From positions 620,001 through 684,000 of the forward strand of contig NZ_CP019646.1 of the NCBI RefSeq assembly GCF_001999965.1: a DNA stretch of 64,000 nucleotides, given 5' to 3'. The first letter of the stretch is position 1, and every line of letters begins with the position of its first letter. This DNA is from Limihaloglobus sulfuriphilus. GTDB lineage: Bacteria; Planctomycetota; Phycisphaerae; Sedimentisphaerales; Sedimentisphaeraceae. Under the pieces are notes generated by a model, which saw nothing but the letters and a program-made list of their open reading frames with translations, had not been told where the DNA came from and did no database searches. Shown here one piece after another: positions 4,740-47,020 of the stretch. The translations under genes and the position numbers were made by a program.

Positions 4740-4767
4740 TCTCTGTCAGTGATTTTAAAACGTACAA

Positions 4768-4804
4768 AAAGGCATCTGGGTTTAATGCTCAGATGCCTTT
4801 CTTA
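4768..4804. terminator. Bidirectional terminator between convergent genes
   Basis: AAAGGCATCTG (4768-4778) pairs perfectly with CAGATGCCTTT (4790-4800). A-rich sequence on the left and T-rich sequence on the right let it work for both tig (rightward) and the lipoprotein gene (leftward). Confidence 0.85.
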
Positions 4805-4825
4805 TTTTCTCGCAAGACAGAGAGT

Positions 4826-5419: not shown

Positions 5420-5439
5420 ATTATACCTCGCTTAAAAAT

Positions 5440-5748: not shown

Positions 5749-5954
5749 GGCTAAATCTCCATTTTAAAAGTTCAGATGTGAATTTTGGATATCAATGTAT
5801 TTATTATAACACAGCAGGCGGTAATTTCCACAATTTTCAAGTTACAGGCCAATATTTTGCATTTATTAGTGCAGAATCGTAAAAGTTTTAAAATTGTAGT
5901 ATTACTTCTGATTGTTGTTAAAATTTGAAACCGGCTGGTTACATTTTTCTGGAA

Positions 5955-5978
5955 ATAACAGACCTGTTATATTATAAT
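5955..5978 (+). promoter_or_regulatory. Palindrome next to the pdxB -10 box
   Basis: ATAACAGACCTGTTAT (5955-5970) is a 7-bp-arm palindrome with a 2-base centre. Two bases later comes TATAAT (5973-5978), about 30 bases ahead of the pdxB ATG. A dyad in the spacer of a promoter is a typical repressor site. No clear -35 box is seen. Confidence 0.45.
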
Positions 5979-6009
5979 CACAACTTAATTTATGCAAGGT
6001 TAGAGAGCA

Positions 6010-7149: not shown

Positions 7150-7199
7150 AATTACCGGCGGCAATAATCTGATCTTCGCCTTTAAAAGATGGGTAACAA

Positions 7200-8671: not shown

Positions 8672-8696
8672 AATTATACAATACGTTTAACTTGGT

Positions 8697-26468: not shown

Positions 26469-29270
26469 ATGTCAAATCGAACAGCGTTCTCAACTCTTTG
26501 CATAGCTTTAGCGCTTATCTTTGCATTCTCATCGAACCTGCTTGCATTCGCAGGCGGCGACGGCACACCCGAAAATCCCTGGCAGGTCTCTACCGTACAG
26601 GACATTTTAGATGTAAACAATGACCTGAATGCATGTTATACCCTGACCAACAATATAGATTTTAATGACGCGGTTTATGAGGATTATGTGATTGGTGCTT
26701 TCTACGGCTCTTTCGACGGCAACGGGTTTACCGTAATGAACCTGGCACTGCAATCTTCCGCTTATAATTCAGGATTTTTCAGGTATATTTATCCAGAGGG
26801 AACCGTTAAAAATTTATTTATTTGTAACTTTCATGTAACAGGCCACATTTATGCAGGAGTTTTGACTGCATGGAACGGTGGTTTAATAGAGAACTGTCAT
26901 TCAGTTAGTGCTGACATAAAAGGCTTATACAGCGCAGCAGCTTTGGCTGGCCGCAACGGAGGGATTCTCAGAGATAGTTCTGCGGATGGTGATCTTTACG
27001 CAGCAGGAGGTTTACGTGAATTCGGCAGCTCAACCGGTGCTGCGGATTCTGGAATGCTTGTTGGAGTTAACAACGGAACAATAGAAAACTGTAATTCGTC
27101 GGGCTTGATACACCCTTACCCGGATGACCCTTCTCCTACCCACATACCTTTAGGATTCGGCGGTTTAGTTGGATTTAATGATGGCGGTATCATACAAAAC
27201 TGCTACTCAACAGCGTCATTGACAGATGTTTCTGGCGGCGGCCTTGTAGGGTGTAACAGCGACAATCATTTGGGGATTAGAGGACATGGAATCATCTTAG
27301 ACTCATACGCATCCGGGAATTTAGATAGAAGCGGAGGCGGGATCGCCGGTAACAACTCTGGCTACATTTCCGGATGCTATTCTGTCTGCACCATAACCGG
27401 CAGCGGAGGGGGTGTGGTTTCTTATAATAATGGATATGTTACGCAATGTTATTCCGGGGTAAACACCTTGGAAAGCGGCGGCGGCTTTGTCAGTTTAAAC
27501 GGTACAGACGGGGTGATAACAGACTGTTATTCGTTAACAAATGTTACCGGTGCGGGCGGCGGTTTTGCCCGTGAAAACGGGGGGTTAATCCTGGGCTGTC
27601 TTGCAAGGGGAGATGTTACAAGCTCTGAAGATTATGTTGGGGGTTTTGTGGGGCGAAATAGATATGGAGAGACAATTTATGGAGGGACAATTATCGACTG
27701 TTTCGCAACAGGAAATGTTACCGGCAATGAATACGTAGGCGGTTTCGCCGGCGAAAACTACTCGGGCAGAATTGAAAACTGCTTTTCTGCAGGCATGGTA
27801 ACCGGCAGCGGCAGGGTTGGCGGACTGATCGGATATATAACCGGCGGAATACAAAGAAACTGTTTCTGGGATAAAGATACCGCTCAACAGCCGGTCGGAT
27901 ATAACCACGACATGGTTGGATCGACGCTCATAGATAACGTAGCCGGCAAAACAACAGAACAGATGAAAAATGAAGAAATATTTCTTGAAGCCGGCTGGGA
28001 CCTAAACGGCGAAGATGCCAACGGAATTCAGGACACGTGGTATTGCAGTGAGGGCCAATACCCCTTGCTGACCCGTCTCAGACCGGACCATGCCCCGTTA
28101 GAGCTCCAAGGCTGCGGCACAGGAGAATCTCCATACATGATCAGCAGCGGGCGTGAGCTGCTATCCATTAGTCGGGATATATTCGCCCATTACGAGCTGA
28201 CCGGCAACATTTATCTGGCTAATACAGAATTTGTTTATTCACCCTTCCCGTATTTTTACGGCTCCCTGAACGGACAGGGGCATTTCATAGAAAACCTGCA
28301 TATCAGCGCGGAAGATTTTGCCTATATCGGTCTTTTCGGCAGGATTATGCCCTTGGTTTCTATAAGGAACTTGGGATTAAAGAACGCGACTGTTTCCGGT
28401 TTGGACGTTGTGGGCATACTGGCAGGAGACATCATTTTAGATAGAGACACAACCGGTGTGGGTAATGACAAACCTGTACTTATTAATAACTGCTTTTCAA
28501 CAGGGTCTGTAACCGGAAGCCAATCTGTCGGCGGCCTGATTGGCCTGGTGAATAACAGTGCCTGTAATATAATAAACTGCTATTCAACAGCTTCAGTAGT
28601 CGGTGATTCATCTGCCGGCGGCCTTATAGCGGGTAATGCGGGAATTGTATCAAACTGCTATGCTTCCGGTAATGTAAACGCAACTGACTATGCGGGCGGA
28701 TTTGTCTCCCAAAATTTCTACGGCAGTATTGAGAACTGCTATGCAGCAGGGGATGTACACTCACTACAATATTCTGGCGGGTTTGTCTCAGTAAACGATT
28801 CAGACGCTATTGTGTCAAATTCTTACGCGACAGGTATCGTAACTGCAGAGTCTTACGCCGGCGGTTTCGCCGGAAGAGACCGCAGTAGTGAACTGATAAT
28901 GAACTGCTTTTGGGATATAGATGCATCCGGCATGGAAGCAAGTGAAGCTGGGACCGGAAAAACCACCGCCCAGATGCAGGATATAAACACCTTTTTAAAT
29001 GCCGGCTGGGATTATGTTAATGAATCCGAAAACGGCAATATGGAGATATGGTATCAGACACTTGGCGGTTACCCTGTGTTGTACTGGCAGGCCGCGGCGG
29101 GAGATATCAACTGCGACGGTGTTGTTGATCTGGCAGATTTCACCCGGATGGTCGATTACTGGCTGCTGGCGAATGATGATATGGCAGAGGGTTACCGGCT
29201 GCTGGGCGATATAAACCATGACGGCAGTGTTGACCTGGCGGACTTCGCGGCGGCTCTCTGGCAGCTTTAA
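26469..29270 (+). CDS. Secreted GLUG-repeat protein with C-terminal dockerin
   Basis: A 933-residue exported protein. The signal peptide runs to about residue 27 (ends NLLAFA), followed by the block opener GGDGTPENPWQVSTVQD. Two long sections carry repeating GLUG-type units of the form GGFAGEN..G.IENCFS.G.VTG, each a beta-strand coil with a Cys. A dockerin type I domain (878-933) has two calcium-loop repeats, GDINCDGVVDLADF and GDINHDGSVDLADF. GLUG repeats are known from adhesins and surface proteins; dockerins bind cohesins. I infer an extracellular surface or matrix protein. Ribosome-binding site AAGGTGGG lies upstream. A paralogue is at 60178. Confidence 0.88.
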   Translation: MSNRTAFSTLCIALALIFAFSSNLLAFAGGDGTPENPWQVSTVQDILDVNNDLNACYTLTNNIDFNDAVYEDYVIGAFYGSFDGNGFTVMNLALQSSAYNSGFFRYIYPEGTVKNLFICNFHVTGHIYAGVLTAWNGGLIENCHSVSADIKGLYSAAALAGRNGGILRDSSADGDLYAAGGLREFGSSTGAADSGMLVGVNNGTIENCNSSGLIHPYPDDPSPTHIPLGFGGLVGFNDGGIIQNCYSTASLTDVSGGGLVGCNSDNHLGIRGHGIILDSYASGNLDRSGGGIAGNNSGYISGCYSVCTITGSGGGVVSYNNGYVTQCYSGVNTLESGGGFVSLNGTDGVITDCYSLTNVTGAGGGFARENGGLILGCLARGDVTSSEDYVGGFVGRNRYGETIYGGTIIDCFATGNVTGNEYVGGFAGENYSGRIENCFSAGMVTGSGRVGGLIGYITGGIQRNCFWDKDTAQQPVGYNHDMVGSTLIDNVAGKTTEQMKNEEIFLEAGWDLNGEDANGIQDTWYCSEGQYPLLTRLRPDHAPLELQGCGTGESPYMISSGRELLSISRDIFAHYELTGNIYLANTEFVYSPFPYFYGSLNGQGHFIENLHISAEDFAYIGLFGRIMPLVSIRNLGLKNATVSGLDVVGILAGDIILDRDTTGVGNDKPVLINNCFSTGSVTGSQSVGGLIGLVNNSACNIINCYSTASVVGDSSAGGLIAGNAGIVSNCYASGNVNATDYAGGFVSQNFYGSIENCYAAGDVHSLQYSGGFVSVNDSDAIVSNSYATGIVTAESYAGGFAGRDRSSELIMNCFWDIDASGMEASEAGTGKTTAQMQDINTFLNAGWDYVNESENGNMEIWYQTLGGYPVLYWQAAAGDINCDGVVDLADFTRMVDYWLLANDDMAEGYRLLGDINHDGSVDLADFAAALWQL

Positions 29271-33287: not shown

Positions 33288-34604
33288 ATGGCAACACAAC
33301 TTGAAGCCGCCCGCAGGGGCGATACTAACGAAGTAATGCAATTCGTTGCAGACACAGAGAATATATCTATTGAAACCGTTCAAAAGGAGCTTGCCGCCGG
33401 CCGGCTGGTGATTCCCGCTAACAAGATGCACCTTGCGTGGAATCTTAAGCCAAAAGCCATTGGAAGGGCGGCCGCCATCAAGGTCAATGCTAATATCGGT
33501 ATGAGCAGTGTCAGCTCGTCTCTTGACGATGAAGTCAAGAAGATGAAAACAGCTATTAGTTACGGCGCAGATGCTGTTATGGATTTGAGCACCGGAGGCG
33601 ACCTCGATGAAACCCGCAAACGGCTGATAAGTGAATGTGAAGTTCCTTTTGGCACAGTGCCCATATACGAGGCGATACAGGGACGCGATGTTGACGATAT
33701 AACACCTGCTGTAATAATGGAGATAATCGAACGCCAGGCCAAGCAGGGTGTTGACTTCTTCACGATACATGCCGGTCTGCTTCGTGAGCATCTGCCGCTG
33801 CTTGAGTCCAGGGTTTGCGGCATTGTCAGCCGCGGCGGAGCTCTGATGTCTAAATGGATGCTTTCGCATAACCGTCAGAATATTATGTATGAGTTATTCG
33901 ACGATATCTGCGCGGTGATGCGTGATTATGATGTCTGTTTTTCACTTGGTGATGGGCTCAGACCCGGTTGCGGCGCTGACGCAACAGACGAGGCTCAAAT
34001 CGCAGAACTCCGTACGCTTGGAGAACTTACACAGCGTTCGTGGGAAAACGGCTGCCAGGTTATGGTCGAGGGGCCCGGTCATGTGCCGTTCAACCAGATA
34101 GAAGAAAATATGCGGATTCAGGACGAGATATGCCAGGGCGCGCCGTTTTATGTTTTAGGCCCGCTGGTTACGGATATTGCCCCGGGTTATGACCATATAA
34201 CTTCAGCGATAGGCGGTACAGCCGCCGGTTATTACGGCGCTTCATTCCTGTGCTATGTCACGCCGAGGGAACATCTTGGCCTGCCGGGCGATGATGATGT
34301 CCGGCAGGGTGTTATGGCTGCCAGAATCGCTGCACACGCCGCGGATGTCGCCAGAGGTTTCCCCGGAGCCGCTGACAGGGATCTGGCCATCAGCAAGGCA
34401 AGGGCCAATCTTGAATGGGACAAACAGATAGATTCATCCCTTGATCCGGTAACAGCCAGAAGAATGCACGAAGAGGCAGGCAAAGAAAGCCGAATGTCTG
34501 CCGAAGATGTTGATTACTGTACTATGTGCGGCCGCGACTGGTGCAGCGTGAGGATTAACCGTGAAATACGGGACACATTTTTCTCACGTGAAAAATCACA
34601 ATAA
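33288..34604 (+). CDS. thiC: Phosphomethylpyrimidine synthase
   Basis: Radical-SAM type enzyme of 438 residues that rearranges aminoimidazole ribotide to HMP phosphate for thiamine. The unusual C-terminal CX2CX4C cluster site is Cys411, Cys414 and Cys419 (YCTMCGRDWCSVR). GADAVMDLSTGGDL, TIHAGL, ALMSKWM and EGPGHVP blocks are the family core. It is the short form typical of bacteria that lack the eukaryote-like N-terminal extension. Controlled by the TPP riboswitch just upstream. Confidence 0.97.
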   Translation: MATQLEAARRGDTNEVMQFVADTENISIETVQKELAAGRLVIPANKMHLAWNLKPKAIGRAAAIKVNANIGMSSVSSSLDDEVKKMKTAISYGADAVMDLSTGGDLDETRKRLISECEVPFGTVPIYEAIQGRDVDDITPAVIMEIIERQAKQGVDFFTIHAGLLREHLPLLESRVCGIVSRGGALMSKWMLSHNRQNIMYELFDDICAVMRDYDVCFSLGDGLRPGCGADATDEAQIAELRTLGELTQRSWENGCQVMVEGPGHVPFNQIEENMRIQDEICQGAPFYVLGPLVTDIAPGYDHITSAIGGTAAGYYGASFLCYVTPREHLGLPGDDDVRQGVMAARIAAHAADVARGFPGAADRDLAISKARANLEWDKQIDSSLDPVTARRMHEEAGKESRMSAEDVDYCTMCGRDWCSVRINREIRDTFFSREKSQ

Positions 34605-34607
34605 CCG

Positions 34608-35576
34608 CTAAGCTGTAAAGATCGGCTCACTTTCTGCCGCCAGGTCTGAAAGAATCTTCGTTTCCTGGGCAGATAGTTTGCCGGCTCTGGGCAGATTTGA
34701 CACACACAGCCTGAACAGTGCTTCTTCTCCGGGCGGGATAGCTATATTTGCGCCCTGTTCCAGAGTCCAGCTAAGGGCAAGTCTGGCTTTTTCGGGGTCA
34801 TCAAGCGGCATATACCAGCATTTTGGATATTTCTTTTTATCCTCATCGTTTTGCCATTTCTGCCAGGCCATTGTTTTGAGTGCTATGATACCCATGCCGC
34901 GTTTTTTTGCCTCAGCAAGAGCTGCTTCCTCGTGGCGGCTGTTAAAATGCGTGCAGAAATTCACGGGGTACATGATCGTGTCGAAGTCGTACAGATCCAT
35001 TGCGGCCAACGCGGCCTCGGGCGTATGCGCGGAAAAACCTACATATCGTATGATTCCGTTCTTTTTGGCCTCGAGTATTGTTTCCATTGCGCCGCCCTTA
35101 GCAAAAGAGGCTTTTACGTCTTTCTCTACATCAGTAATTCCGTGAAGCTGATAAACATCGAAATGGTCAGTCTGGAGTTTCTCCAGTGATTCATCAAGCA
35201 GTTTTTTTGTACCTTTGGCGTCTCTAAGATGTGATTTGCAAGCAAGATACACATCTTTTCTGTACGGTGCCAGCGCAGGGCCCAGCTTTTCTTCGGCATT
35301 GCCGTAAGAGGGGGCAACATCAAAGTAATTGATGCCCTTTTCTATTGCGAATTTTACTGCATTCGCGGCTGTCTCAGGTTCGGCATTCATAACAACAATG
35401 CCGCCGAAGCCTATCCTGGAAACGTTAAGGTCTGTTTTGCCGAGTTTTACCATACTGGTTATCTCCTTTGCCGGTATATTTGCTTTTCTTGATGACATGG
35501 CCGAAATTTCGGAGCCTTTAAACATTACACCAGCTGTAACCGCTCCAGCGGTTTTAATAAAGTTTCTTCTTTTCAT
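34608..35576 (-). CDS. Tat-exported aldo/keto reductase
   Basis: A 322-residue aldo/keto reductase preceded by a twin-arginine signal: MKRRNFIKTAGAVTAG. The reductase domain (about 45-315) has the catalytic Asp/Tyr strand NYFDVAPSYGNAEEKLG and Lys (CKSH), then the His strand YQLHGIT. It probably acts in the periplasm or on the outer face, on an unknown carbonyl or sugar substrate. ATG 35576 is preferred to the longer start 35588 because GAGG lies 8 bases upstream. It stops 4 bases beyond the convergent thiC stop and is followed at 35728 by a catabolic operon on the same strand. Confidence 0.85.
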   Translation of the reverse strand: MKRRNFIKTAGAVTAGVMFKGSEISAMSSRKANIPAKEITSMVKLGKTDLNVSRIGFGGIVVMNAEPETAANAVKFAIEKGINYFDVAPSYGNAEEKLGPALAPYRKDVYLACKSHLRDAKGTKKLLDESLEKLQTDHFDVYQLHGITDVEKDVKASFAKGGAMETILEAKKNGIIRYVGFSAHTPEAALAAMDLYDFDTIMYPVNFCTHFNSRHEEAALAEAKKRGMGIIALKTMAWQKWQNDEDKKKYPKCWYMPLDDPEKARLALSWTLEQGANIAIPPGEEALFRLCVSNLPRAGKLSAQETKILSDLAAESEPIFTA

Positions 35577-35727
35577 GATATGCCTCACGTTTTATTAGTT
35601 TAATTTAGTATAAACATACTATACAATTCATATAGCCTAAATCAAGCATAAAACATTTTCATTGCCCGCGTGGAAGTGCAAAATCATTTTACTACGCAGA
35701 ATGAAGGTTTTTTTGTGAAAAATTATT

Positions 35728-36960
35728 TTACCATAGAACCATTTTAGCGTATTTATCCAGGTCATCTACCGGCTCGTCTTTCCAGAGCCACGCGAGGAGC
35801 TTGCTGATTTTATCAAGATTCAGCTCATCAGGAGAAAATCTCAATTCATCCGGCAGTTTGTTCTCATCCGGCGTGTTTAGCAGGTACTTCAGGCCCGCTT
35901 TTGCGCCGCGTGAGAGGTTGGCTGCCTTGATGCCGTACTGGTCGGCAAGGCGTATAGTGCCAAATATCCGGTCGCTGTAGCCGAGTTTGCGTACAGGGTC
36001 TCTGCCGGCGCGGGCGGCGGAATCACGCAGGAACGGATTTGTCATTCTTGCCAGCAGGTCATCAGCATAATCGGTATAGCCTGCCGGTGTAAACAGCGTG
36101 TCGCCAAGCGATTTGTATTTCTGGACCAATGCCCCGCCGGATTCATCTATAAATGCCTTTCTGGCTATTTCCATCAGGTCCGGCCGGCTTCGCAGCTGAT
36201 CCATCGTTTCAAGGCCCGCCTCCATTGCCAGATACCCCAGCATCGCATGTATGGCGTTGTGTCCGTAGAGCTTTGCCTCTTCAAACGGCAGCAGATCGTC
36301 TTTTTCCATGAAAACATCGATACCCGGAGTGAAACCATCGATACTCGCCTTTGTTACGAGTATCCGGTTGAACTCTTCGACAAGAAACGCCCGCATGAAA
36401 CCCTCTGCGATGGTTGCAAGGCCTTCGGACTTTATCAGCGCCGGGTCATTTGTTACCTGGCTCATCTTGCCGATAACGGTGTTTAGGAATTTAACACGTG
36501 AGGTGTCAATGTCGGTATAGGCTCCGACTTTTTCGGTGAGTATCTCCGCGGCGTGGTTGTTGTTCTCCGCCGTGTAGATGATTGTTGCCTCTGCGGAGGA
36601 GTTTTTCAGCCCCGCGGCAATCAGCCGTGCTACGGAATTTTCGCCCATATCGTAGAAATTGACGCTCGGCAGTGAGGTCGCGATCTCGGTGGATACGCTC
36701 AAAGCCTCAACCAGCTTTTGCCTGTCCGCATCATCGCCGGGATTGTAGATTTCTATACCTTCGATTGTCATGGTATAGACCCTGTCGCTGCCTGCAACGT
36801 TTACTTTGTAGGTGCCGCCGGAAGCCCTCACCGCGTCAACGAGTGTCTGGTCTATCTCTGCTATGACTATCCTGTCAAAACGTCCGGTCTTGAATGCTTC
36901 TGCCGCGAAGAGCCCGCTCTGTATCGGCCCGAAGCCGAATCCTGTAAAGATGTGTTTCAT
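35728..36960 (-). CDS. Mannitol-1-phosphate dehydrogenase-like polyol (phosphate) dehydrogenase
   Basis: A 410-residue member of the long-chain mannitol/altronate dehydrogenase family. Rossmann GxGxG is seen near the N-terminus (FTGFGFGPIQSG), and the catalytic KxxxxNxxH signature is Lys230, Asn235 and His238 (EEAKLYGHNAIHAML). It should oxidise or reduce a sugar alcohol or its phosphate with NAD(H). The substrate is not readable. It is the last gene of a four-gene leftward operon and lies about 10 bases after the DUF4432 stop. No signal peptide. Confidence 0.75.
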   Translation of the reverse strand: MKHIFTGFGFGPIQSGLFAAEAFKTGRFDRIVIAEIDQTLVDAVRASGGTYKVNVAGSDRVYTMTIEGIEIYNPGDDADRQKLVEALSVSTEIATSLPSVNFYDMGENSVARLIAAGLKNSSAEATIIYTAENNNHAAEILTEKVGAYTDIDTSRVKFLNTVIGKMSQVTNDPALIKSEGLATIAEGFMRAFLVEEFNRILVTKASIDGFTPGIDVFMEKDDLLPFEEAKLYGHNAIHAMLGYLAMEAGLETMDQLRSRPDLMEIARKAFIDESGGALVQKYKSLGDTLFTPAGYTDYADDLLARMTNPFLRDSAARAGRDPVRKLGYSDRIFGTIRLADQYGIKAANLSRGAKAGLKYLLNTPDENKLPDELRFSPDELNLDKISKLLAWLWKDEPVDDLDKYAKMVLW

Positions 36961-36970
36961 AAATTTCCGT

Positions 36971-37987
36971 TTATTTTTCTGTTATGTCTATAACTAATTT
37001 GTAATTCCTTGTTTCGCCGGGTTCGAGCATTATCAGTTTGCCCTCTTCTCTGGCCTTTACCTGTCCTGTGGGGAAGTTTGTCGCCGGTTCCAGGCCGGTA
37101 ACGTATTCGCCGCGTCCCCAGTGCTGCCAGTTCGCCAGGCAGGGCAGCTGTTTCGCATCGTATGTAATCATCGCTCCAAGAGAGAGCTTGTCGTTGAACA
37201 GACCTGTCCTGCAGAGCCCGTCATCATCCGGCGTTGAATCGATAAATCCGCACGCCTCGCCGCTGCCGCTGTGAGCGTCGATCGGGGCCGAGCACGTCCG
37301 GTAGTCGTTGTTTTCGTTGAATACGGCATCGTCGAAATCCATGCCGCGGGATCTGCACTTGCCCTTGTAGAGTATTTGTGTTCCCTGGTCAACCAGCGGC
37401 CAGCCGAAATTGCAGTGATACAGCAGCATGTGCGGCGAGGAGCTGTTGCCGCGGTTGATGACCCTGTCGGTTATAACTATCTGCGGCTTAAGCAGTTTGC
37501 ATGATATCGTCCGCTGCATCTCGAGATTTGGTCCGAAAACCCGTGCTTCGCGGACTATCCCGCTGATACTCATCTGCGGCTCAGCGTCGGTTAGCTCGGG
37601 CTGAATGATGCTTGTTACCTCGGCGGCACTGTTGCTGTATTTCCCGTGCAGGCCGCGTTGTCCGCTCTCATCTTCGTCCGGTGCGCCGGCATGGCTTAGC
37701 CCGCAGGTTGTAACCAGTCCTCCGGGGAAAGTCGAGAGCCAGTTTAGCCCGCGGTCACTGTCGGGCCGCGGCGCCGCAGTGCCGACAAAGCTGAGCCATG
37801 AGAGGCTGTATTTGCCGTAGAAAGCCTCAACAATATCCAGCCCGCGGTCAATGCTGACCTTAAACCGAAGCCCCGAGCCGGTATTTACCCATGCAACGCG
37901 GCTGCCGCGTCCCGGGCCGTTGTCAACGACATATGTCTCAATGCCGCCGAGCTGGTTGTGATTTATTATCCTGTCCTTATAGTCCAT
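36971..37987 (-). CDS. DUF4432 family (aldose 1-epimerase-like) protein
   Basis: A 338-residue protein in the galactose-mutarotase-like superfamily, DUF4432: VDNGPGRGSRVAWVNTGSGLRFKVSIDRGLDI, then FPGGLVTTCGLSHAGAP and LLYHCNFGWPL. These enzymes bind sugars and are found in sugar catabolic operons. ATG 37987 (MDYKDR) has AAAGGAT about 8 bases upstream, so the longer start at 38011 is rejected. It sits between the PfkB kinase and the dehydrogenase. Confidence 0.75.
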   Translation of the reverse strand: MDYKDRIINHNQLGGIETYVVDNGPGRGSRVAWVNTGSGLRFKVSIDRGLDIVEAFYGKYSLSWLSFVGTAAPRPDSDRGLNWLSTFPGGLVTTCGLSHAGAPDEDESGQRGLHGKYSNSAAEVTSIIQPELTDAEPQMSISGIVREARVFGPNLEMQRTISCKLLKPQIVITDRVINRGNSSSPHMLLYHCNFGWPLVDQGTQILYKGKCRSRGMDFDDAVFNENNDYRTCSAPIDAHSGSGEACGFIDSTPDDDGLCRTGLFNDKLSLGAMITYDAKQLPCLANWQHWGRGEYVTGLEPATNFPTGQVKAREEGKLIMLEPGETRNYKLVIDITEK

Positions 37988-38051
37988 GGTTTTTATCCTT
38001 TCATTAAGCATTCGAAGAAAAACCGTTCAGCGTGGTCTAAGCCGCGGCGGG

Positions 38052-39248
38052 TTATGACGTTTTTCTGCTGTCCCGCGGGCCGTGCCACATGTTTGTTTTT
38101 TCATCGAACTGCCAACCGTTTTCATTTATGCAAACCTTATTGAATTCAAGCTCCGTGTCTCTTGCCATCTTGATTGTCGTTTGCCAATCTTTTATTCCGC
38201 TTAGCGTGTCCATCGACCTTATGTTCTGGTATGCCAGTATGTTAGCTGTCCGCAGCGTGTCAACCGGTTCGAGTCCGTAGAGTATCGCTGTTAGAAAGCC
38301 GCCTATCGTTGAATCGCCGGCGCCGGTTGCCGAGGCGAATTCTTCTTTTGGGCAGAAGTACGACGGGCACCATATCTGCCGCGACTGCCACGCCGCGGAG
38401 TCTATGCCCTTAATCTTGATTTTGTCTGCCGTCTGGAGGTAATAGCCGTCAATACCTTTTTTGACCGCGGCGATACTTACGCCCATATCAATCAGAGTTC
38501 CGGTGAGATACTCGCAGTCCGCGGCGCTGTATGCCAGAACCGGATCGGAGTCGCCCGCATCTTTTTTTCGCTGGTAAAACAGCTCCTTGTCCAGCATGAA
38601 CGCCGTTTCCTCCACGCTTGGCAGGAATATATCGACATACGGCAGGGTGTTTTTGAGCATCTCACGCCAGTCGATACGCCCTGAATCACTGTCCGGGTCG
38701 GGCAGAGTCATATCAAGGCTTGTAATCACGCCGCAGTCTTTGGCTTTCTTGAACATTTTCGCCGTCTGGCTGCCGCCGTCTTGGTACATGCGTTTCATCA
38801 GCGGCGGATAACCAAAATGGAAAAGCCAGCAGTCTTTGAGTGCGTCATAGTCGATATCATCGAGCGTAAACGTGTCGTTAGTAGCCGGATTATGCAGAAA
38901 CATCCTGTCCAGGCCGGGAGGTGCGATCACTATCGAGTATGAGCTGCTCTGTCCGGGCACAATGCTGAACGATTTTGAACGGTCTCTGCCGACTATATCC
39001 TGGATCATTGAGCCGAAGGCATCATCTCCGATTTTGCCGTTGAGTTTTACGTCAAGCCCGAGCTTTGCCATCGTAAGGCCGGTGTTTGAGACTGCTCCGC
39101 CGGTGCCTATGACCGCCTCGCCGACATTTATCAGCTTGCCCGGGGCGAATATATCATTGAAACCGCCGCTGAGCGAGTCCGGAAACTTCGGGGTTATGTC
39201 CAGGCATATATGCCCGGCGACCATTACACTTTTGTTCTTTTCAGTCAT
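38052..39248 (-). CDS. PfkB-family carbohydrate kinase
   Basis: A 398-residue ribokinase-type kinase. The N-terminal glycine motif GTGGAVSNTG is at 48-57, and the C-terminal ATGAGD, with the catalytic base Asp312, is at 307-312. It is longer than usual (about 300-330) through insertions in the lid and central region. It should phosphorylate a sugar or polyol; it is the only kinase in this operon. Overlap and spacing are tight: the upstream gene ends at 39258. Confidence 0.85.
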   Translation of the reverse strand: MTEKNKSVMVAGHICLDITPKFPDSLSGGFNDIFAPGKLINVGEAVIGTGGAVSNTGLTMAKLGLDVKLNGKIGDDAFGSMIQDIVGRDRSKSFSIVPGQSSSYSIVIAPPGLDRMFLHNPATNDTFTLDDIDYDALKDCWLFHFGYPPLMKRMYQDGGSQTAKMFKKAKDCGVITSLDMTLPDPDSDSGRIDWREMLKNTLPYVDIFLPSVEETAFMLDKELFYQRKKDAGDSDPVLAYSAADCEYLTGTLIDMGVSIAAVKKGIDGYYLQTADKIKIKGIDSAAWQSRQIWCPSYFCPKEEFASATGAGDSTIGGFLTAILYGLEPVDTLRTANILAYQNIRSMDTLSGIKDWQTTIKMARDTELEFNKVCINENGWQFDEKTNMWHGPRDSRKTS

Positions 39249-39257
39249 ACTAACGGG

Positions 39258-40208
39258 TTATCCTTTGAACAGTCCCTGAAGTATCGGCTCTCTTACAATC
39301 ATGCTGCCGCGTCTGAACCAGTCGGTTGTCATGTCGGCGCTGCCCTTGGGCGGAACGAGTGAGCCGGCGTATTTGGGGTCAACCGGCGGCTTGGCGATCA
39401 CCAGATCAAGCGGCACCGCAGAGTTCTCGTTCACTACAGCCAGATGCTCATTGTCCGGGTGAGAGTTGCACCAGCCGTGAGCGCAGGGGCCGAAATCCGT
39501 TGTTGCTACATAGAGTTTTTCACCCTTTTGCAGGGCAACCGGAACGAGGCCGTCAAATTCATCTTTTATCAGCTCGGGCATCTGGAGCTCTCTGGCGAGT
39601 TTTTCGCCGCGTTGGCGGGCCGCTTTGAGGTACGGCCGCGATGCGTTCACCGGATGCTCAAACGCTTTGGGAGATATAAACGTACACAGCCGGCTCTTGT
39701 TGTGGTCGCTGAGCATCGTGAAATCTTCAAACTTGCCCGGAATCATGTCAATGTATCCCTTTTCCTGCCAGAGGCTTGTGAAAGTTCTGGAGGGGTCTTC
39801 TATCATGACGTATGTCCAGTCGCCTTTCCATGTTTCGTTTGGCGGCTCAAAACCGCTCAAAACCGCGTGCGCGTCGATGGTGCCCGCCGGCACGTTGTCG
39901 CCGCCGCTGTACACCTGCGGATCAAATACGAAAACGTTGTTATGCCCGTGCATCGGCAGCAGCGGGGTTACCAGGCCCTTGTTGCAGACCGCATCGTTTA
40001 TGCCGACATAAATCGCCAGGGCGGTTTCGGCAACCTCCGGGATAAGATGCGCCAGCTCAAGCGAATTGATATCTTCATCAGGTGCCAGATAATGGCCGCA
40101 GTCTTTCATTAAGCCGTAAGAATTGACAAGAAAATCCCGGTACTCTTCTTCAGTGCATGAGGAACGCTCGATAACTTTCATTGAACGTTTTATGATTGTT
40201 TCTTCCAT
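39258..40208 (-). CDS. Unknown protein, first gene of the catabolic operon
   Basis: A 316-residue soluble protein I do not recognise. It has a cluster of His/Cys residues (PLLPMHGHNNVFVFDP, FGPCAHGWCNSHPDNEH) that could bind a metal, and acidic patches suited to sugar or nucleotide binding. No signal peptide or membrane segment. ATG 40208 is chosen over a distal one because AAGGAAAA lies about 8 bases upstream. It precedes a kinase, an epimerase-like protein and a dehydrogenase, so an enzyme of the same pathway is likely. Confidence 0.7.
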   Translation of the reverse strand: MEETIIKRSMKVIERSSCTEEEYRDFLVNSYGLMKDCGHYLAPDEDINSLELAHLIPEVAETALAIYVGINDAVCNKGLVTPLLPMHGHNNVFVFDPQVYSGGDNVPAGTIDAHAVLSGFEPPNETWKGDWTYVMIEDPSRTFTSLWQEKGYIDMIPGKFEDFTMLSDHNKSRLCTFISPKAFEHPVNASRPYLKAARQRGEKLARELQMPELIKDEFDGLVPVALQKGEKLYVATTDFGPCAHGWCNSHPDNEHLAVVNENSAVPLDLVIAKPPVDPKYAGSLVPPKGSADMTTDWFRRGSMIVREPILQGLFKG

Positions 40209-40224
40209 AGTGTTTTCCTTTACA

Positions 40225-40278
40225 AAACAATTTGTTTCCAATCTTCATACATAGTAGGCGGCAACAGCCAATTGTCAA
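40225..40278 (-). promoter_or_regulatory. Promoter and operator-like palindrome of the catabolic operon
   Basis: On the minus strand TTGACA (40278-40273), a 16-base spacer and TACTAT (40256-40251). Just downstream is the dyad AAACAA-T-TTGTTT (40225-40237), between the expected start point and the ribosome-binding site, a typical repressor position. Confidence 0.55.
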
Positions 40279-40353
40279 CTGTTTTTGACTGATTCAAGAT
40301 GAATTGGAATCAAAAGAAACATAAACGAAACAAAAAGAACACAGGCTTGCATT

Positions 40354-40492
40354 TTTCTTTGTGCGGCGGTAGCGCGGCACCTCTTTAAAGCCGCTGTTCT
40401 AACGAAAACACCGCTGAACCTATCACATAACGCTCAAATAACAAAAAAAAGCGGCGCCGCCTCGCTGCGCTCGTTGTCGCGTGCACTCCAAA
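40354..40492. repeat. Dispersed inverted-repeat element, copy 2
   Basis: Copy of the element at 26191-26332. The middle and right parts match closely (AACGAAAACACCGCTGAA, CATAACGCTCAAATAA, and the GCGGCGCCGCCTCGCTGCGC arm ending in GCACTCCAAA). The left arm has lost several bases. It lies in the 436-base gap between the catabolic operon and the 64-residue gene, next to the GHKL/STAS/PIN cassette. Confidence 0.85.
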
Positions 40493-40644
40493 GCACTGTA
40501 ATTATTGCCTTTAGCGTTTTTGTCGCAGACAAAATGTATGGTCTGTCGCAGATTATCCTTGAAAAAAAGATAAACCTCTGCTATTGTTTCGTTTACATTT
40601 AAGTAGTATTTCAAACAGGATTAACAGGTACATAAGGGCGGATA

Positions 40645-40839
40645 ATGGCTAAAATTGAACTGACAGAAGCGGAAAAGAGAGAGGTGCTCGAGTGTCTGGA
40701 AAAGGGAAAGCCCCTCGATGATAGATTCCGGTTTCTGCTCTTTGGCGATAAACGTGAGGTTGAGCTTGTCTGGAACGGCAAGACCAGCCAGGTATGCAAT
40801 GTCGTTCTGCCGTTTCAGGTTATCGAGGTGGGTGTATGA
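40645..40839 (+). CDS. Small conserved protein, R-M-associated type
   Basis: A 64-residue protein: MAKIELTEAEKREVLECLEKG, then FRFLLFGDKREVELVWNGKTS and CNVVLPFQVIE. I recall near-identical small proteins preceding adenine-specific DNA methyltransferases in type III-like restriction loci, but no methyltransferase follows here. Instead its stop overlaps the GHKL ATPase start (ATGA). Function unknown; the overlap implies coupled translation. It is the first gene of the cassette. Family link is from memory and should be checked. Confidence 0.55.
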   Translation: MAKIELTEAEKREVLECLEKGKPLDDRFRFLLFGDKREVELVWNGKTSQVCNVVLPFQVIEVGV

Positions 40840-41714
40840 GGATAGAGCTGCCTGATATACGCCACAATCAATTTGGGTTTGAGGCTTTAGTGTTCCTGAA
40901 AAGCCAAACAGAGGAATTATGGCTGGAAACTATAGATATAGACATGAAATTGACAACCTGGTTTGATGCGGATATGTGCGCGGCGTTTGGGGCCATTCTC
41001 TACCGCCTTGGAGAAAGACTCAATACTGTTAAACTGAATAATATCAGTGAAAATGTTGAGATAATCCTTTCTAAGAATGGTTTTTTGAGTCATTACGGGC
41101 GTAACAGATTTGCTGATACATGGGGAACCACTATTACTTATCAGCGATTCGACGTTAAAGATGACCGTTATTTTGCCGGTTACATCGAAAAAGAGCTGAT
41201 ACATCGCAGTGAAATCCCAAAAATGTCGGCAGGCCTGCTGAAAAAATTTCGTGAGAGCATCTTCGAGATATTCAGTAACGCCGTGCTTCACTCCCAAACT
41301 AAATATGGCGTTTTCAGCTGCGGGCAATTTTATCCAAGAGGCAGCCGTTTGAACTTTTCAGTAGCAGATTTGGGTATTGGTATCAGGGGTAATGTAAAAG
41401 AGATCAAAGGCTTTGACTTCCCGGCCGAGGATGCCATCGACTGGGCGACCCGGGAGCATAATACGACAAAAAGAGGTAACATACCCGGCGGCCTGGGTTT
41501 AAAACTGCTCTGCGAATTTGTTGACCACAATGGCGGAAATATTCAAATTTTATCCGATGCAGGCTACTGGAGAAGAGAGAACAGAAACGTTACCAAAAAA
41601 AGAATAAATGATGTTTTTCCCGGAACGGTTGTTAATATAGAGATCAACACAGCCGATACACATTCCTATCAGCTTGCTTGTGAAAATAGAATAACAGAAA
41701 ACGATATATTTTAA
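40836..41714 (+). CDS. GHKL-type ATPase with N-terminal STAS-like region
   Basis: A 292-residue cytoplasmic protein. Residues 1-100 look like a STAS-related alpha/beta domain (a long strand-helix pattern ending in a segment NGFLSHYGRN). Residues 135-270 form a histidine-kinase-like ATP-binding domain: N box Glu144/Asn148 (ESIFEIFSNAVLHS), G1 with Asp178 (VADLGIGIRG) and G2 GGLGLKLL (218-225). There is no phosphorylatable His-kinase region, so it resembles RsbW/SpoIIAB-type anti-sigma kinases or a switch ATPase. It overlaps the gene before by 4 bases and ends 10 bases before the DUF4325 gene. Confidence 0.75.
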   Translation: MRIELPDIRHNQFGFEALVFLKSQTEELWLETIDIDMKLTTWFDADMCAAFGAILYRLGERLNTVKLNNISENVEIILSKNGFLSHYGRNRFADTWGTTITYQRFDVKDDRYFAGYIEKELIHRSEIPKMSAGLLKKFRESIFEIFSNAVLHSQTKYGVFSCGQFYPRGSRLNFSVADLGIGIRGNVKEIKGFDFPAEDAIDWATREHNTTKRGNIPGGLGLKLLCEFVDHNGGNIQILSDAGYWRRENRNVTKKRINDVFPGTVVNIEINTADTHSYQLACENRITENDIF

Positions 41715-41724
41715 GGTGATACAA

Positions 41725-42078
41725 ATGGAAAAACAAATTGAATTATCAATATTTGAAATAGTCGGCAGCCCCTTATGCGTTGCATCTGGAGATGGTGAAA
41801 AAGTTTACGAAAGGCTCGATCAGGCTTTTTCTAATGGTGTTGAAGTTAAACTTTCGTTTGGCAATATCGATACCCTGACATCCGCCTTCTTAAATGCGGC
41901 AATTGGCCAGTTGTACGGCAGTTACTCTGAAGAACAGATAAGAAATCTGCTAAAGGTACAGGATATGCAGCCGGACGATATGGCTCTGTTGAAAAGAGTG
42001 GTTGAAACTGCCAAGCTGTATTTTAAAGACCCTGACGGCTTTGATAAGGCAAACCGTGAAGCGATGGAGGAAGATTAG
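41725..42078 (+). CDS. STAS-like DUF4325 protein
   Basis: A 117-residue protein matching the DUF4325/STAS-like family: ELSIFEIVGSPLCVASGDGEKVYERLDQAFSNG, then a strand with VKLSFGNIDTLTSAFLNAAIGQLYG. In this family the loop TLTSAFLN stands where phosphorylation sites occur in SpoIIAA-type antagonists. ATG 41725 with AAGGTG 6 bases upstream is preferred to the GTG at 41716. It stands between the ATPase and the PIN protein, one base from the latter, so the three are surely one operon. Confidence 0.78.
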   Translation: MEKQIELSIFEIVGSPLCVASGDGEKVYERLDQAFSNGVEVKLSFGNIDTLTSAFLNAAIGQLYGSYSEEQIRNLLKVQDMQPDDMALLKRVVETAKLYFKDPDGFDKANREAMEED

Positions 42079-42079
42079 A

Positions 42080-42625
42080 ATGTCCAGTAATGTAATAGAA
42101 GCTGAGAGTTATGAGTTTTCTGCACAGGATAAATTGATTGTTGACACCAATGTCTGGATTTTCAATTACGGCCCGTCATCTCCACGTAAACCTCAGGTCA
42201 GAAAATATTCTCGGATTTTGTCTAATGCATTGACGGCAAAATGCCAGATATATATTGATGTTATGATTGTATCAGAGTTTATTAATACTTATGCGAGAAT
42301 GAAGTTCAATCAAATTAAACAACAAAACCAATTTTGCAACTTCAAATCTTTTAGAAACAGTTCTGGTTTCAAAGCGGTTGCCCGGGATATTGCATCTGAT
42401 ACGAGGCGAATATTAAGTCTTTGCAACCGTATAAAAACCGGTTTTGAAACAGTAGATATAGATAAGATTTTAACCGAATTTGGGCAAGGAAATTCCGACT
42501 TTAATGATCAAATGATTACAGCTTTATGTAAAAGGGAGGGATTGACACTTGTTACAGATGACGGCGACTTTGCAGGTAAGGATATCCCGATCATAACTGC
42601 AAACAGACGACTTTTAGCCCCTTGA
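42080..42625 (+). CDS. PIN-domain ribonuclease-like protein
   Basis: A 181-residue PIN fold. Acidic residues that bind the metal in PIN nucleases are present: Asp22 (IVDTNVW), Glu66 (VSEFIN), Asp140/Asp143 (SDFNDQ) and Asp161/Asp163 (TDDGDF). PIN domains cut RNA and are classical toxins or defence effectors. It is the last gene of the cassette, with GGAGG ahead of ATG 42080. There is no obvious antitoxin next to it; the STAS-like protein could fill that role. No signal peptide. Confidence 0.8.
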   Translation: MSSNVIEAESYEFSAQDKLIVDTNVWIFNYGPSSPRKPQVRKYSRILSNALTAKCQIYIDVMIVSEFINTYARMKFNQIKQQNQFCNFKSFRNSSGFKAVARDIASDTRRILSLCNRIKTGFETVDIDKILTEFGQGNSDFNDQMITALCKREGLTLVTDDGDFAGKDIPIITANRRLLAP

Positions 42626-43004: not shown

Positions 43005-44714
43005 ATGCTGACAGGTACAAAGCGAACAGGTAAGTATATACCTACACTGTTATTTATATTGATCTGCGCGTTCTTCGGCGCGTTTTTTATATATCCAATG
43101 CTGCTTGCTGTAAAGGAAGGTCTGCTTCATGATGGAGATCTGAGCCTGTATTGGGTTATCAGCATCGTAAAAAACAAGATTTTGCTCCAGAAGTTTATTA
43201 ACAGCCTGCTGTTAGCTGTAATAACAACTTTTTTGATTATATGTCTCTCCCTTCCACTGGCGATGATCAGTGCCAATTGCAGTTTCAAAGGCCGCGATAT
43301 AGCCGCGAATCTGCTTCTGCTGCCTATGATTATGCCGCCGTTTGTGGGGGCTCTTTCTGTTAAGAGATTTTTCGCCCAGCACGGCATACTCAACCAGATA
43401 TTGATAAAAGCGGGCGTGATTGAGTTTTCGCAGGCGTATGACTGGCTTGGTACCGGTTTCGCGGCGGTAGTGCTGATGCAGATGCTGCACCTGTTTCCCA
43501 TAATGTATCTGAATCTGACATCATGCCTGTCTAATATTGACCCCATGTATTACGAGGCGGCGAAAAACTTCGGGGCTTCGGGCTGGAAACAATTCTGGAA
43601 AATAACTCTACCTCTTTTGCGGCCTGGAATATTCGCCGGCAGTTCCATCGTGTTTATCTGGTCGTTTACAGATATTGGAACGCCGTTAATATTTGATTAT
43701 AATGAGCTTGCTTCGGTAAAGGTGTTTAACGAGCTGCAGCAGTCAAACATCAGCGGCAGCGCATACGGTTTTGTTATTGTTCTGCTTTTGGTCAGTGTTG
43801 CCTGTTATTCACTGACTAAAGTCGTTCTGGGAAAGCCGGTAGCATCAGACACTTCCAAAGCGACAGTCTCGGCGCAGTCCAGGCGGCTTTCAGGTATTAA
43901 AACGTTTCTTGTCTGGCTTCTGTTCGGCTCTGTTACCCTGATCGCGATCATGCCGCACCTTGGCGTAATAGTCACCGCTTTTGCCGACCGCTGGGTAAGC
44001 ACAATCGCCCCTGAATCCTGGACTTTAAACCACATGAAGTTTGTCCTTACCCAGCAGCAGACACGAACGAGCATTATCAACAGCCTCAAATACGCATCAT
44101 GCTCCACGCTGCTGGATATCGTAATAGGAACCACCGCGGCATGGCTGATTATAAGGCGCAAGCATTTTGGCTCACGTGCGCTTGATTCGATGCTGATGAT
44201 GCCTCTGGCAGTTCCGGGGCTTATACTCGCGGCAGGATTTATCGCCATGACAGTTATGGGAAGCCGGTTCGAGCGTATTGGCCCGGCTTACAACCCATTC
44301 ATAATCATAGTGATAGCCTATGCAGTACGCCGCATACCGTTTGTGGTCAGGGGTGTTTCGGCCGGACTTCAGCAGATACCGGTAACACTGGAACACGCGG
44401 CTATGAATCTGGGAGCGTCTCGATTTACCGCGTTTAAACGGATAACAATGCCGCTGATTTCGGCTAACATAATCGCTGCCGGCGTGCTTACGTTTGCTTT
44501 TGCGATGCTCGAGGTCAGCGATTCTCTGGTGCTTGCCCAGCAGGCGGCGCATTATCCGATAACAAAGCAGATGTACGTTTCCGTGGCGGCGAATCCCGAT
44601 GCGGTCAATATCGCCTCGGCACTTGGCGTGGTGGGAATGGTGCTGCTGGGCGGTTCGATGTTTGCCGCGTCGATGCTGATGGGGCGTAAACTCGGGGCAA
44701 TATTCAGGGTTTGA
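43005..44714 (+). CDS. ABC transporter permease, Fbp/ThiP type
   Basis: A 569-residue inner-membrane protein with about 12 transmembrane helices in two homologous halves, as in FbpB, AfuB and ThiP. Each half carries an EAA loop for ATPase contact: EAAKNFGASGWKQFW near 185 and EHAAMNLGASRFTAFK near 470. It should import iron(III), phosphonate, thiamine or a similar small ligand with a binding protein, but none is adjacent. RBS AAGGAAAA lies before ATG 43005. It is followed by its ATPase after a repeat-filled gap. Confidence 0.85.
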   Translation: MLTGTKRTGKYIPTLLFILICAFFGAFFIYPMLLAVKEGLLHDGDLSLYWVISIVKNKILLQKFINSLLLAVITTFLIICLSLPLAMISANCSFKGRDIAANLLLLPMIMPPFVGALSVKRFFAQHGILNQILIKAGVIEFSQAYDWLGTGFAAVVLMQMLHLFPIMYLNLTSCLSNIDPMYYEAAKNFGASGWKQFWKITLPLLRPGIFAGSSIVFIWSFTDIGTPLIFDYNELASVKVFNELQQSNISGSAYGFVIVLLLVSVACYSLTKVVLGKPVASDTSKATVSAQSRRLSGIKTFLVWLLFGSVTLIAIMPHLGVIVTAFADRWVSTIAPESWTLNHMKFVLTQQQTRTSIINSLKYASCSTLLDIVIGTTAAWLIIRRKHFGSRALDSMLMMPLAVPGLILAAGFIAMTVMGSRFERIGPAYNPFIIIVIAYAVRRIPFVVRGVSAGLQQIPVTLEHAAMNLGASRFTAFKRITMPLISANIIAAGVLTFAFAMLEVSDSLVLAQQAAHYPITKQMYVSVAANPDAVNIASALGVVGMVLLGGSMFAASMLMGRKLGAIFRV

Positions 44715-44854: not shown

Positions 44855-45937
44855 ATGAGACAGATAAAAATAGATAATATTCATAAGAGTTACAAGCAGA
44901 GCGGCTCTCAGCTGAAGATTCTGGACGGGATCAATATAACAATAAGCTCGGGTGAGTTCTTTTTTCTGCTGGGCCCCAGCGGCTGCGGCAAAACGACACT
45001 GCTTAGGATAATCTGCGGGCTTCTCGAGCCGAGCTCGGGCAAGATATTTTTCGACGACAAAGACGTTACACAAGAGTCTGTCCAAAAAAGAGATACTGCG
45101 ATGGTTTTCCAGAATTACGCCCTATGGCCGCACATGACTGTGCAGAAAAACACGGAGTTCGGCCTTGAAATGAAGGGCGTTGACACCAAACAAAGGGCGC
45201 AAGAGGCCCTGAAAAACCTCAAAATGGTTCAGATGGACGAATACGCATCCAGGAAACCCAACCAGCTCTCCGGCGGCCAGCAGCAGAGGGTCGCGCTTGC
45301 CAGGGCGATAGCATCACGGCCGCAGTGCCTTCTGCTCGATGAGCCGCTGAGCAATCTTGATGCAAAACTCCGGCTCCAGATGCGAGGCGAGCTTCGCCGG
45401 CTGGTCAAATCTTCCGGCATTACAGGTATTTACGTTACTCATGACCAGAAAGAGGCCCTGTCAATGGCGGACCGTATAGCCATTATGCACCGCGGACGGG
45501 TTGAGCAGGTTGCCAGTCCGTTTGAGATGTATGAGAGGCCGCACACGTCTTTTGTTGCCGATTTTGTCGGCGAGGCCAATTTCCTTGAAGGCAAAACAAC
45601 TAAGGAGGGCGAATGTGTTGCGGTTAACACACCTGTTGGAACAATATCTGCCCAGATGAATGATTTCTTCACTGATGGGGCAGTGTCAAGGTGCTGTATC
45701 CGTCCGGAAAAGATTACCATGGCGGCCGCAAACGAATCACCTCTGGAGGGTTATGAAAACAAAATACCGGCCTCTATAATTTCCCGAACTTATCTGGGTG
45801 AGTCCATCCAGTACGAAGTCGCTCTCAAGGACAAGCAAAGCTGGAAAATATCTGTCCCCGGTTCAATGAAATTTCCCGAAGATAAAGAAACTTACCTGTA
45901 TTTCAAAACAAACGACGTTGTATTGTTAAGAGAATAA
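44855..45937 (+). CDS. ABC transporter ATP-binding protein, Fbp/Pot type
   Basis: A 360-residue ATPase. Walker A GPSGCGKT is at 40-47, the signature LSGGQ at 138-142, Walker B LLLDEP at 159-164, D-loop SNLDAKLR after it, and the switch His in VTHDQKEA. A TOBE-like C-terminal domain (about 240-355) contacts the regulator or substrate. It pairs with the permease upstream (same strand, 140 bases away, no promoter recognised). The missing binding protein leaves the substrate unknown. Confidence 0.88.
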   Translation: MRQIKIDNIHKSYKQSGSQLKILDGINITISSGEFFFLLGPSGCGKTTLLRIICGLLEPSSGKIFFDDKDVTQESVQKRDTAMVFQNYALWPHMTVQKNTEFGLEMKGVDTKQRAQEALKNLKMVQMDEYASRKPNQLSGGQQQRVALARAIASRPQCLLLDEPLSNLDAKLRLQMRGELRRLVKSSGITGIYVTHDQKEALSMADRIAIMHRGRVEQVASPFEMYERPHTSFVADFVGEANFLEGKTTKEGECVAVNTPVGTISAQMNDFFTDGAVSRCCIRPEKITMAAANESPLEGYENKIPASIISRTYLGESIQYEVALKDKQSWKISVPGSMKFPEDKETYLYFKTNDVVLLRE

Positions 45938-46024: not shown

Positions 46025-47020
46025 ATGAAAACTGTTATTAGCCAAAGAACAAAACCGCCTCTTCTCTCCGCAGGGTTCACCCTCATAGAGCTTTTGGTTG
46101 TAATATCAATCATAGCTTTGCTTATGGGAATAATGATGCCGGCGCTTAGCCGTGCCAGAGCTATAGCTCAATCGGCAGTATGCAAATCCAATCTCCGCCA
46201 GTCCGGAATCGCCCTGGCAACCTATACCGCTTCAAATAAAGACTGGCTGCCCGGCCCCAACACCAGCGGCGGCAATATCGCCAGAAATGAGGCAACTCCC
46301 AAAGAGCTGGCTTCCAAAACCAGTCCGGTGCAGAACTGCGACTGGATATCGCCTCTTCTCGGCAACGAATTCGGCCTTCCAACCGACACCGAAGAGCGAA
46401 TTATAGAGCTTTGTACTAATACGTTTGTGTGTCCTTCCAACAAAGCCAAATATGATTATGAGTATCCCGGCGGGTTTATAAATAAAGTTGACGTTACTTC
46501 GCTTAAAGTTTTCAGCTACTCATCGCCCACAGCCTTTCACGCATACAGTTTTCGCAATACCGGCAAACCTGTAACCGATGCCGAGATACGCAATGCCGCG
46601 ACAGTAGCTCCCGGTTATGTGCCCAAGATGACAAAAATAGGCAGTGCTCAGCGGAAGATATTTGTGCTTGAGGGCACACGCTACTTAAGAGAAACCGGCG
46701 GCGTCTATCAGGCTTCATTGAACAATATCAGGTATCAGAACGACGGGGGCAACTATATGGTCTGGGGGCCTGCTACACAGTTCCCCGGTGATCCGTTTGT
46801 CATTGGCACGCCGGCAAATCTGGAGTTGACCGATACCGCCCGCAAATATGCTTACAGGCATAATGACGGCTTCAACACAGCGTTTTTTGACGGCCATGTA
46901 GAATCACTTAGCTGGCAGGAAAGCCTCGATATAAGGATGTACTGGCCGAGAGGCTCTCGGGTTATGCGGGCAAACTTTACCTACGACCCAAACGACAGAA
47001 ACGGCATGACAATAAAATAG
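46025..47020 (+). CDS. Prepilin-like protein with H-X9-DG domain
   Basis: A 331-residue type II/IV pseudopilin-like protein. The leader peptide ends at Gly17, followed by FTLIELLVVISIIALL, the N-methylated helix, with Glu22. The remainder is a DUF1559-like globular domain ending with HNDGFNTAFFDGH (His, nine residues, Asp-Gly), the H-X9-DG motif that is very frequent in planctomycetes. I infer a secreted or surface pseudopilin-like protein; its secretion machinery is not in the window. It precedes the two dockerin genes on the same strand. Confidence 0.88.
   Translation: MKTVISQRTKPPLLSAGFTLIELLVVISIIALLMGIMMPALSRARAIAQSAVCKSNLRQSGIALATYTASNKDWLPGPNTSGGNIARNEATPKELASKTSPVQNCDWISPLLGNEFGLPTDTEERIIELCTNTFVCPSNKAKYDYEYPGGFINKVDVTSLKVFSYSSPTAFHAYSFRNTGKPVTDAEIRNAATVAPGYVPKMTKIGSAQRKIFVLEGTRYLRETGGVYQASLNNIRYQNDGGNYMVWGPATQFPGDPFVIGTPANLELTDTARKYAYRHNDGFNTAFFDGHVESLSWQESLDIRMYWPRGSRVMRANFTYDPNDRNGMTIK

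Follow-up and report, generated by a model that had tools for sequence, protein, structure and literature searches.

A 64,000-nucleotide stretch of the Limihaloglobus sulfuriphilus genome (contig NZ_CP019646.1, positions 620,001 to 684,000; here called the window) carries four close-set leftward genes (35728-40208, minus strand). According to open reading frames (ORFs) and Pfam, they encode, in order, a 316-residue protein that we call the orphan, a PfkB kinase, a DUF4432 protein, and a protein resembling mannitol-1-phosphate 5-dehydrogenase (M1PDH). The orphan (39258..40208, minus strand) is present in one copy in a genome that consists of a single 3.87 Mb contig. Judged by its conserved residues and predicted structure, it very probably is a cupin aldose-ketose isomerase that feeds the kinase, whatever the sugar. 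This offers a testable function for a protein family that is nameless in Pfam and NCBIfam, and for a sugar operon of the Planctomycetota, whose genomes often carry alpha-mannosidases.

Two structure models were compared with known proteins: model 1, of the window orphan, was made with AlphaFold2 (AF2) from 20 sequences (pLDDT 83.8, pTM 0.85), and model 2, of the most divergent family member (locus L017), with AlphaFold from 21 sequences (pLDDT 85.6). Both predict a cupin barrel with the N-terminal helices of the D-lyxose/L-ribose isomerase subtype. In a Foldseek search with model 1, all ten matches with E ≤ 0.001 (range 7.0e-6 to 4.2e-4) were L-ribose or D-lyxose isomerases, the L-ribose isomerases 4q0u, 3ww2, and 5avp being at the top. 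With VIA-align 2, the 12 best Protein Data Bank (PDB) entries for model 1 were all cupin D-lyxose/L-ribose isomerases (Z 12.5-15.7; next entry 9.3), and the same 12 entries came out on top for model 2 (Z 12.7-16.1; next 9.8). The D-lyxose isomerase of Thermofilum (7nzo/7nzp/7nzq; PMC8378251) superposed on model 1 through 7nzq over 167 of 178 residues (Z 15.7, 2.7 Å, 21% identity over the aligned residues). L-ribose isomerases reached Z 14.4-15.6, with 3ww2 aligned over 182 of 241 residues (Z 15.6, 3.0 Å), and the E. coli-type D-lyxose isomerase (PF07385; 3kmh, 3mpb) shared the predicted fold at Z 12.5-13.0.

Cupins with other activities also matched the models, among them the dimethylsulfoniopropionate (DMSP) lyase DddK and the nucleoside dehydratase Pac13 (Z 8.2-8.9). 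These matches, together with the undetectable sequence similarity between the orphan and the isomerases, would agree with a cupin metalloenzyme that acts on a sugar as an epimerase, lyase, or oxygenase. We consider this improbable, because DddK and Pac13 stay below the Z of 12.5-16.1 of the isomerases and align over 104-116 residues compared with 159-189, and because K159, E261, and the E-x-S-x4-[DNE] stretch of the orphan are isomerase features.

In the Thermofilum enzyme, H75, H77, E88, and H143 hold Mn, while K62, K86, E156, and D163 also contact the sugar; activity was lost when the counterparts of K86, E156, or D163 were changed (PMC8378251). Seven of these eight contact residues have a proposed, invariant counterpart in the orphan, in the same order. 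K77, H87, H89, K159, E161, H244, and E261 were identical in all 21 family members, and position 268 was Asp in 15, Asn in five, and Glu in one. From this conservation and the models, we propose H87, H89, E161, and H244 as metal ligands and K77, K159, E261, and D268 as substrate or acid-base residues. An earlier interpretation of this DNA (the sequence-only reading) had suggested a structure-based search for a metal site, and the cupin isomerase matches with these four invariant ligand candidates are its outcome. The same reading had noted His/Cys-rich motifs, a fair description of a protein in which four His (54, 87, 89, and 244) are invariant in the 21 members.

The residue order K, HxH, KxE, H, E-x-S-x4-D is common to the orphan and the lyxose isomerases of the Thermofilum and B. 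subtilis (2y0o) types, the last element reading E-x-S-x4-[DNE] in the orphan, and the L-ribose isomerase 3ww1 has a comparable K-x12-HxH-xx-KxE. Where the orphan has the signature KFED, two of three E. coli-type lyxose isomerase sequences have KMED. The final His is preceded by L-x2-GE in the majority of 12 orphan members, as in lyxose isomerases, and H-x3-N follows, as in cupin motif 2 (PMC8378251). Shuffling reproduced the active-site motif in 0 of 20,000 trials; since the pattern was picked after the sequences had been seen, this is a check and not a proof.

The orphan differs from these enzymes in size and in the layout of its metal motif. It has 316 residues, whereas 171-183 residues are modelled in the Thermofilum and B. 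subtilis types and L-ribose isomerase has about 240-250 residues and an unsplit motif. Cupin motif 1 is GX5HXHX3,4EX6G (PMC8378251), but in the orphan it is split, with HxH at 87-89 and the next KxE at 159-161. The 69 residues in between compare with eight in the Thermofilum enzyme and two in the E. coli type, and they may be the reason that sequence searches fail. The orphan matched 0 Pfam families at E ≤ 1 and no NCBIfam family, and 20 members searched against Pfam at E ≤ 5 gave three unrelated weak families, each touched by one or two of these members (best E 0.0073). No match to PF07385 (Lyx_isomer) was found in the window orphan, in the 20 members (E ≤ 5), or anywhere in the orphan's own genome. 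Among PDB sequences, the best matches had E 0.21 and 1 and were unrelated, and a profile of the motif segment was also without a match. Sequence similarity to lyxose isomerases was undetectable in a comparison with E. coli-type sequences only, and a plasmid search with the orphan gave no route to function.

The leading protein had been described as unknown, with motifs that could not be placed, and it does lie outside the Pfam and NCBIfam families while having a likely metal site. The accompanying suggestion, that an unknown metal enzyme plausibly adds a new step to polyol use, was too bold. Its absence from both databases and its invariant His/Glu set would suit such a step, but the predicted fold and invariant residues point to aldose-ketose isomerisation, a known reaction class, and we give a new step very little credence. 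The orphan looks like a very divergent, unnamed branch of a known enzyme type and not like new chemistry: because it falls outside PF07385 and splits cupin motif 1, yet is isomerase-like, it would be a variant rather than a new kind of enzyme. If the motif is indeed split in this way, pattern-based cupin searches would miss further such enzymes. A bolder form of the isomerase proposal, which we regard as rather unlikely, is a distinct family of cupin ketol-isomerases, as yet without a name, in which the 69-residue insertion reshapes the pocket and which acts on a sugar not preferred by any characterised cupin isomerase (for example, a modified mannose or a 6-deoxy sugar), together with a corresponding but unassigned PfkB/DUF4432/M1PDH-like pathway.

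A scan of 84,980 species genomes revealed 17 loci with relatives of the orphan, including 14 in planctomycetes, one in Armatimonadetes, and one in Lentisphaerae; the scan detects close relatives only, so distant ones may exist elsewhere. The family was present in nine of 59 near genomes (own genome included). It is rare outside the order, with matches in three of 288 genomes from the Lentisphaerae member's phylum (two of them already counted) and in one of 251 from the phylum of the Armatimonadetes member, which was the starting genome itself. A sample of 392 genomes of the phylum gave a clear match in the own genome only and two weak matches elsewhere. The weak matches, in genomes G433 and G266, spanned about 70-105 residues (31-34% identity) and corresponded to no such protein in the listed ORFs, so they were taken as chance. 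The final alignment (A4) contains 21 distinct members, including the own copy and those of L024, L027, and L038; the other 20, mostly from Planctomycetota, are 60-78% identical to the window orphan. Within the genomes covered, its members thus form a tight group with a patchy distribution, and intermediate relatives did not turn up. A fragment of a second member lies at a contig end (L037, positions 5-205, G442:C47), and the same contig has a GH38 gene at 2505-3053. A literature search found no account of the family, subscription literature being mostly beyond its reach.

All four genes occur in the same order in the window and at loci L003 and L012, that is, at three of 21 distinct places; several contigs are not long enough to judge. 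The four-gene operon is real and not a chance arrangement, because its order recurs in L003 and L012 and the orphan family is conserved. This bears out the sequence-only reading, which had described a leftward unit of an unknown protein, a PfkB kinase, a DUF4432 protein, and an M1PDH-like protein and had proposed neighbourhood conservation as a check; the four ORFs are there, the last three belong to Pfam families, and the kinase, mutarotase-like, and polyol(-phosphate) dehydrogenase-like proteins confirm a sugar or polyol operon. The gaps between the genes are 9, 40 (64 with the alternative DUF4432 start), and 10 bases.

The kinase (38052..39248, minus strand; 398 residues) matched PF00294 at 77.5 bits against a cut-off of 25.8 (E 1.4e-21), and GAGD is present in its translation. 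Its top PDB sequence matches were fructokinase-like 1 and KDG kinase, and it is predicted to be a ketose kinase, perhaps for fructose. The DUF4432 protein (36971..37987, minus strand) matched PF14486 at 310.6 bits (cut-off 32.5; E 1.1e-92). Its sole PDB match was 3ty1 (5.5e-23), a 'hypothetical aldose 1-epimerase'; the alignment takes in the YHxNFG and EPxT stretches. The ATG at 37987, giving 338 residues, has an AGGA ribosome site, and the listed ATG at 38011 (346 residues) has none. The fourth protein (35728..36960, minus strand; 410 residues) matched PF08125 (Mannitol_dh_C) at 56.5 bits against 30.7 (E 3.3e-15). It aligns with M1PDH (PDB 3h2z) over residues 29-359 (7.5e-18) and keeps the KxxxxNxxH motif as KLYGHNAIH, but the NCBIfam PRK02318 models gave at most 105.7 bits, far under the equivalog cut-off of 356. 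Because these cut-offs are missed so widely, the fourth protein perhaps belongs to a sister group of the mannitol-1-phosphate 5-dehydrogenases.

These annotations suggest a pathway in which the DUF4432 protein would interconvert the anomers of a free aldose, the orphan would turn the aldose into a ketose, the PfkB kinase would phosphorylate the ketose, and the M1PDH-like enzyme would exchange ketose-phosphate and polyol-phosphate. In the orphan, a divalent metal held by H87, H89, H244, and E161 would bind the sugar, as in D-lyxose/L-ribose isomerase, and proton transfer between C2 and C1, via a cis-enediol, would fall to Glu/Lys/His side chains (E161, K159, and E261). The operon, the families of genes 2-4, the fold prediction, the invariant residues, and the kinase linkage are computational results; aldose-ketose isomerase activity (held with good confidence), metal binding by the orphan, and the roles and direction of the other pathway steps are inferred. 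The scheme also gives a substrate hint for the DUF4432 partner.

D-mannose is the sugar set free by alpha-mannosidases such as GH38 and GH92, and, once isomerised and 6-phosphorylated, it yields the substrate of a mannitol-1-phosphate dehydrogenase. Because of the alpha-mannosidase neighbours and the M1PDH-like partner, D-mannose is tentatively the likeliest substrate, with D-mannose to D-fructose as the reaction; the set would then run from D-mannose to D-fructose and fructose-6-phosphate, in exchange with mannitol-1-phosphate. Of 17 places in 14 genomes, three had GH38 within 5 kb of the orphan gene (0.29 expected, 519 of 200,000 draws) and nine had PfkB within 1.5 kb (0.22 expected, 0 of 200,000 draws); the draws scatter genes randomly, while sugar genes cluster, contigs are short, and places are non-independent, so the significance is overstated. 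Loci L001, L002, L004, and L009 were omitted from this test; L004 and L009 have an adjacent PfkB gene, no PfkB is seen at L001 or L002, and GH92 is present at L001. M1PDH-like genes were near the orphan gene in the window and in L003, L012, L013, L017, and L027/L048, and DUF4432 genes in the window and in L003, L004, L009, and L012. The window itself contains a 959-residue GH38 alpha-mannosidase (16706-19585, plus strand) about 20 kb from the operon, and the genome has 10 GH38 matches.

The same isomerase chemistry could serve another sugar, such as D-lyxose, L-ribose, or a rarer deoxy- or methyl-aldose, with PfkB or FGGY phosphorylating the ketose and an aldolase splitting it in some genomes. 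This possibility, which is nested within the isomerase proposal, is a serious one, although we would put it short of even. The kinase subfamilies differ among the family loci: an FGGY kinase adjoins the orphan gene in L015, and in L014 a class II aldolase starts 1.9 kb and an FGGY kinase 2.9 kb downstream, the latter nearest to XylB (305 bits, cut-off 380). In L005, a RhaT-like transporter lies directly upstream, and GH38 was absent within 5 kb at 14 of the 17 places. The GH38/GH92 neighbours and the M1PDH-like partner, however, fit D-mannose and fructose better.

An inositol-type pathway, made up of a cupin isomerase resembling IolB, a kinase resembling IolC, and an aldolase resembling IolJ, would draw on the same class II aldolase of L014. 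The best NCBIfam model for the window kinase is IolC (50.9 bits, cut-off 300), and the Zn-dehydrogenase that adjoins the orphan gene in L013 and is next but one in L004 is nearest to IolM (61.5 bits in L004 and 74.6 in L013, cut-off 450). All Iol scores are far under their cut-offs, and the cupin isomerase KduI reached only Z 8.2-8.3; IolB was not among the listed matches, which proves nothing. We think such a pathway highly improbable.

Several results weigh against the proposed isomerase or its mannose substrate. The alignment of the orphan family with three E. coli-type lyxose isomerases in hhalign had a probability of 0.2%, and the C-terminal motif segment alone gave no link to lyxose isomerases by hhalign or profile. 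Models 1 and 2 share most of their alignment and hence are not independent. In plain Foldseek, model 2 had no match at E ≤ 0.001, and its best 50 matches, headed by mannose-6-phosphate isomerase 1qwr (0.011), included no lyxose/ribose isomerase. The mapping of orphan residues onto the Thermofilum enzyme used order, spacing, and predicted strands, not coordinates, and position 268 is Asn in five of 21 members, yet changing the equivalent Asp abolished activity (PMC8378251). The neighbourhood varies, with the full order at the three places named above; the 5.9-kb contig of L008 showed no PfkB, DUF4432, M1PDH-like, or GH38 gene, and in the L024 genome the nearest PfkB is 6.5 kb from the orphan gene. 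For D-mannose in particular, the 14 places that lack a nearby GH38 count on this side, as does a gene for a type I phosphomannose isomerase at another place in the own genome, which may provide an alternative mannose route or have a biosynthetic role.

Upstream of the operon lies a candidate sigma-70-like promoter, TTGACA-16-TACTAT (40251..40278, minus strand). A distance of 42 nt separates it from the ATG at 40208, a start codon that gives the 316-residue orphan and has an AAAGGA-type ribosome site. The sequence-only reading had assigned the unit its own promoter and a dyad operator. The promoter is no more than plausible: it agrees with the consensus at 10 of 12 positions, and the region contains three promoter-like sites compared with 1.0 ± 1.0 in shuffles. 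For the operator we found no support, which does not disprove it: there are six short, imperfect inverted repeats (arms of 9-13 nt, 82-90% complementary, 7-48 nt spacing), none of which stands out, and the count has neither a chance control nor a comparison of upstream regions behind it. Rfam gave nothing at the gathering score in window positions 34500-41000. Just downstream of the operon, an aldo/keto reductase with a Tat-type signal (34608-35588, minus strand), slightly under the Pfam cut-off, follows after a gap of about 140 bases. The promoter-like site there does not exceed chance expectation, a terminator was not found, and the gene may or may not be co-transcribed with the operon.

Other genes were seen beside family members. 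Seven cluster-3 genes occur in five loci, L003 (1311-3452 and 5025-6113), L004, L005, L006, and L011, and the one scanned matches URO-D. L004 also has two related large proteins in tandem (4389-9771; 972 and about 815 residues), the first without a Pfam match. A 217-residue protein without a Pfam match is encoded directly downstream of the orphan-family gene in L015 (2007-2660), and in L046 (9489-10865) a fusion of a glycosyltransferase 2 with a HAD phosphatase-like domain adjoins the orphan-family gene of G030. Elsewhere in the window, a divergent trio (40794-42625, plus strand) encodes an HATPase_c-like protein (under the Pfam cut-off), a DUF4325 STAS-like protein, and a PIN-domain protein. 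A 331-residue protein without a Pfam match at 1e-5 (46025-47020, plus strand) has as neighbours an ABC ATPase (44855-45937) and, at 43005-44714, an ORF judged permease-like by eye, and a protein of 933 residues that combines GLUG motifs with a dockerin domain is encoded at 26469-29270 (plus strand).

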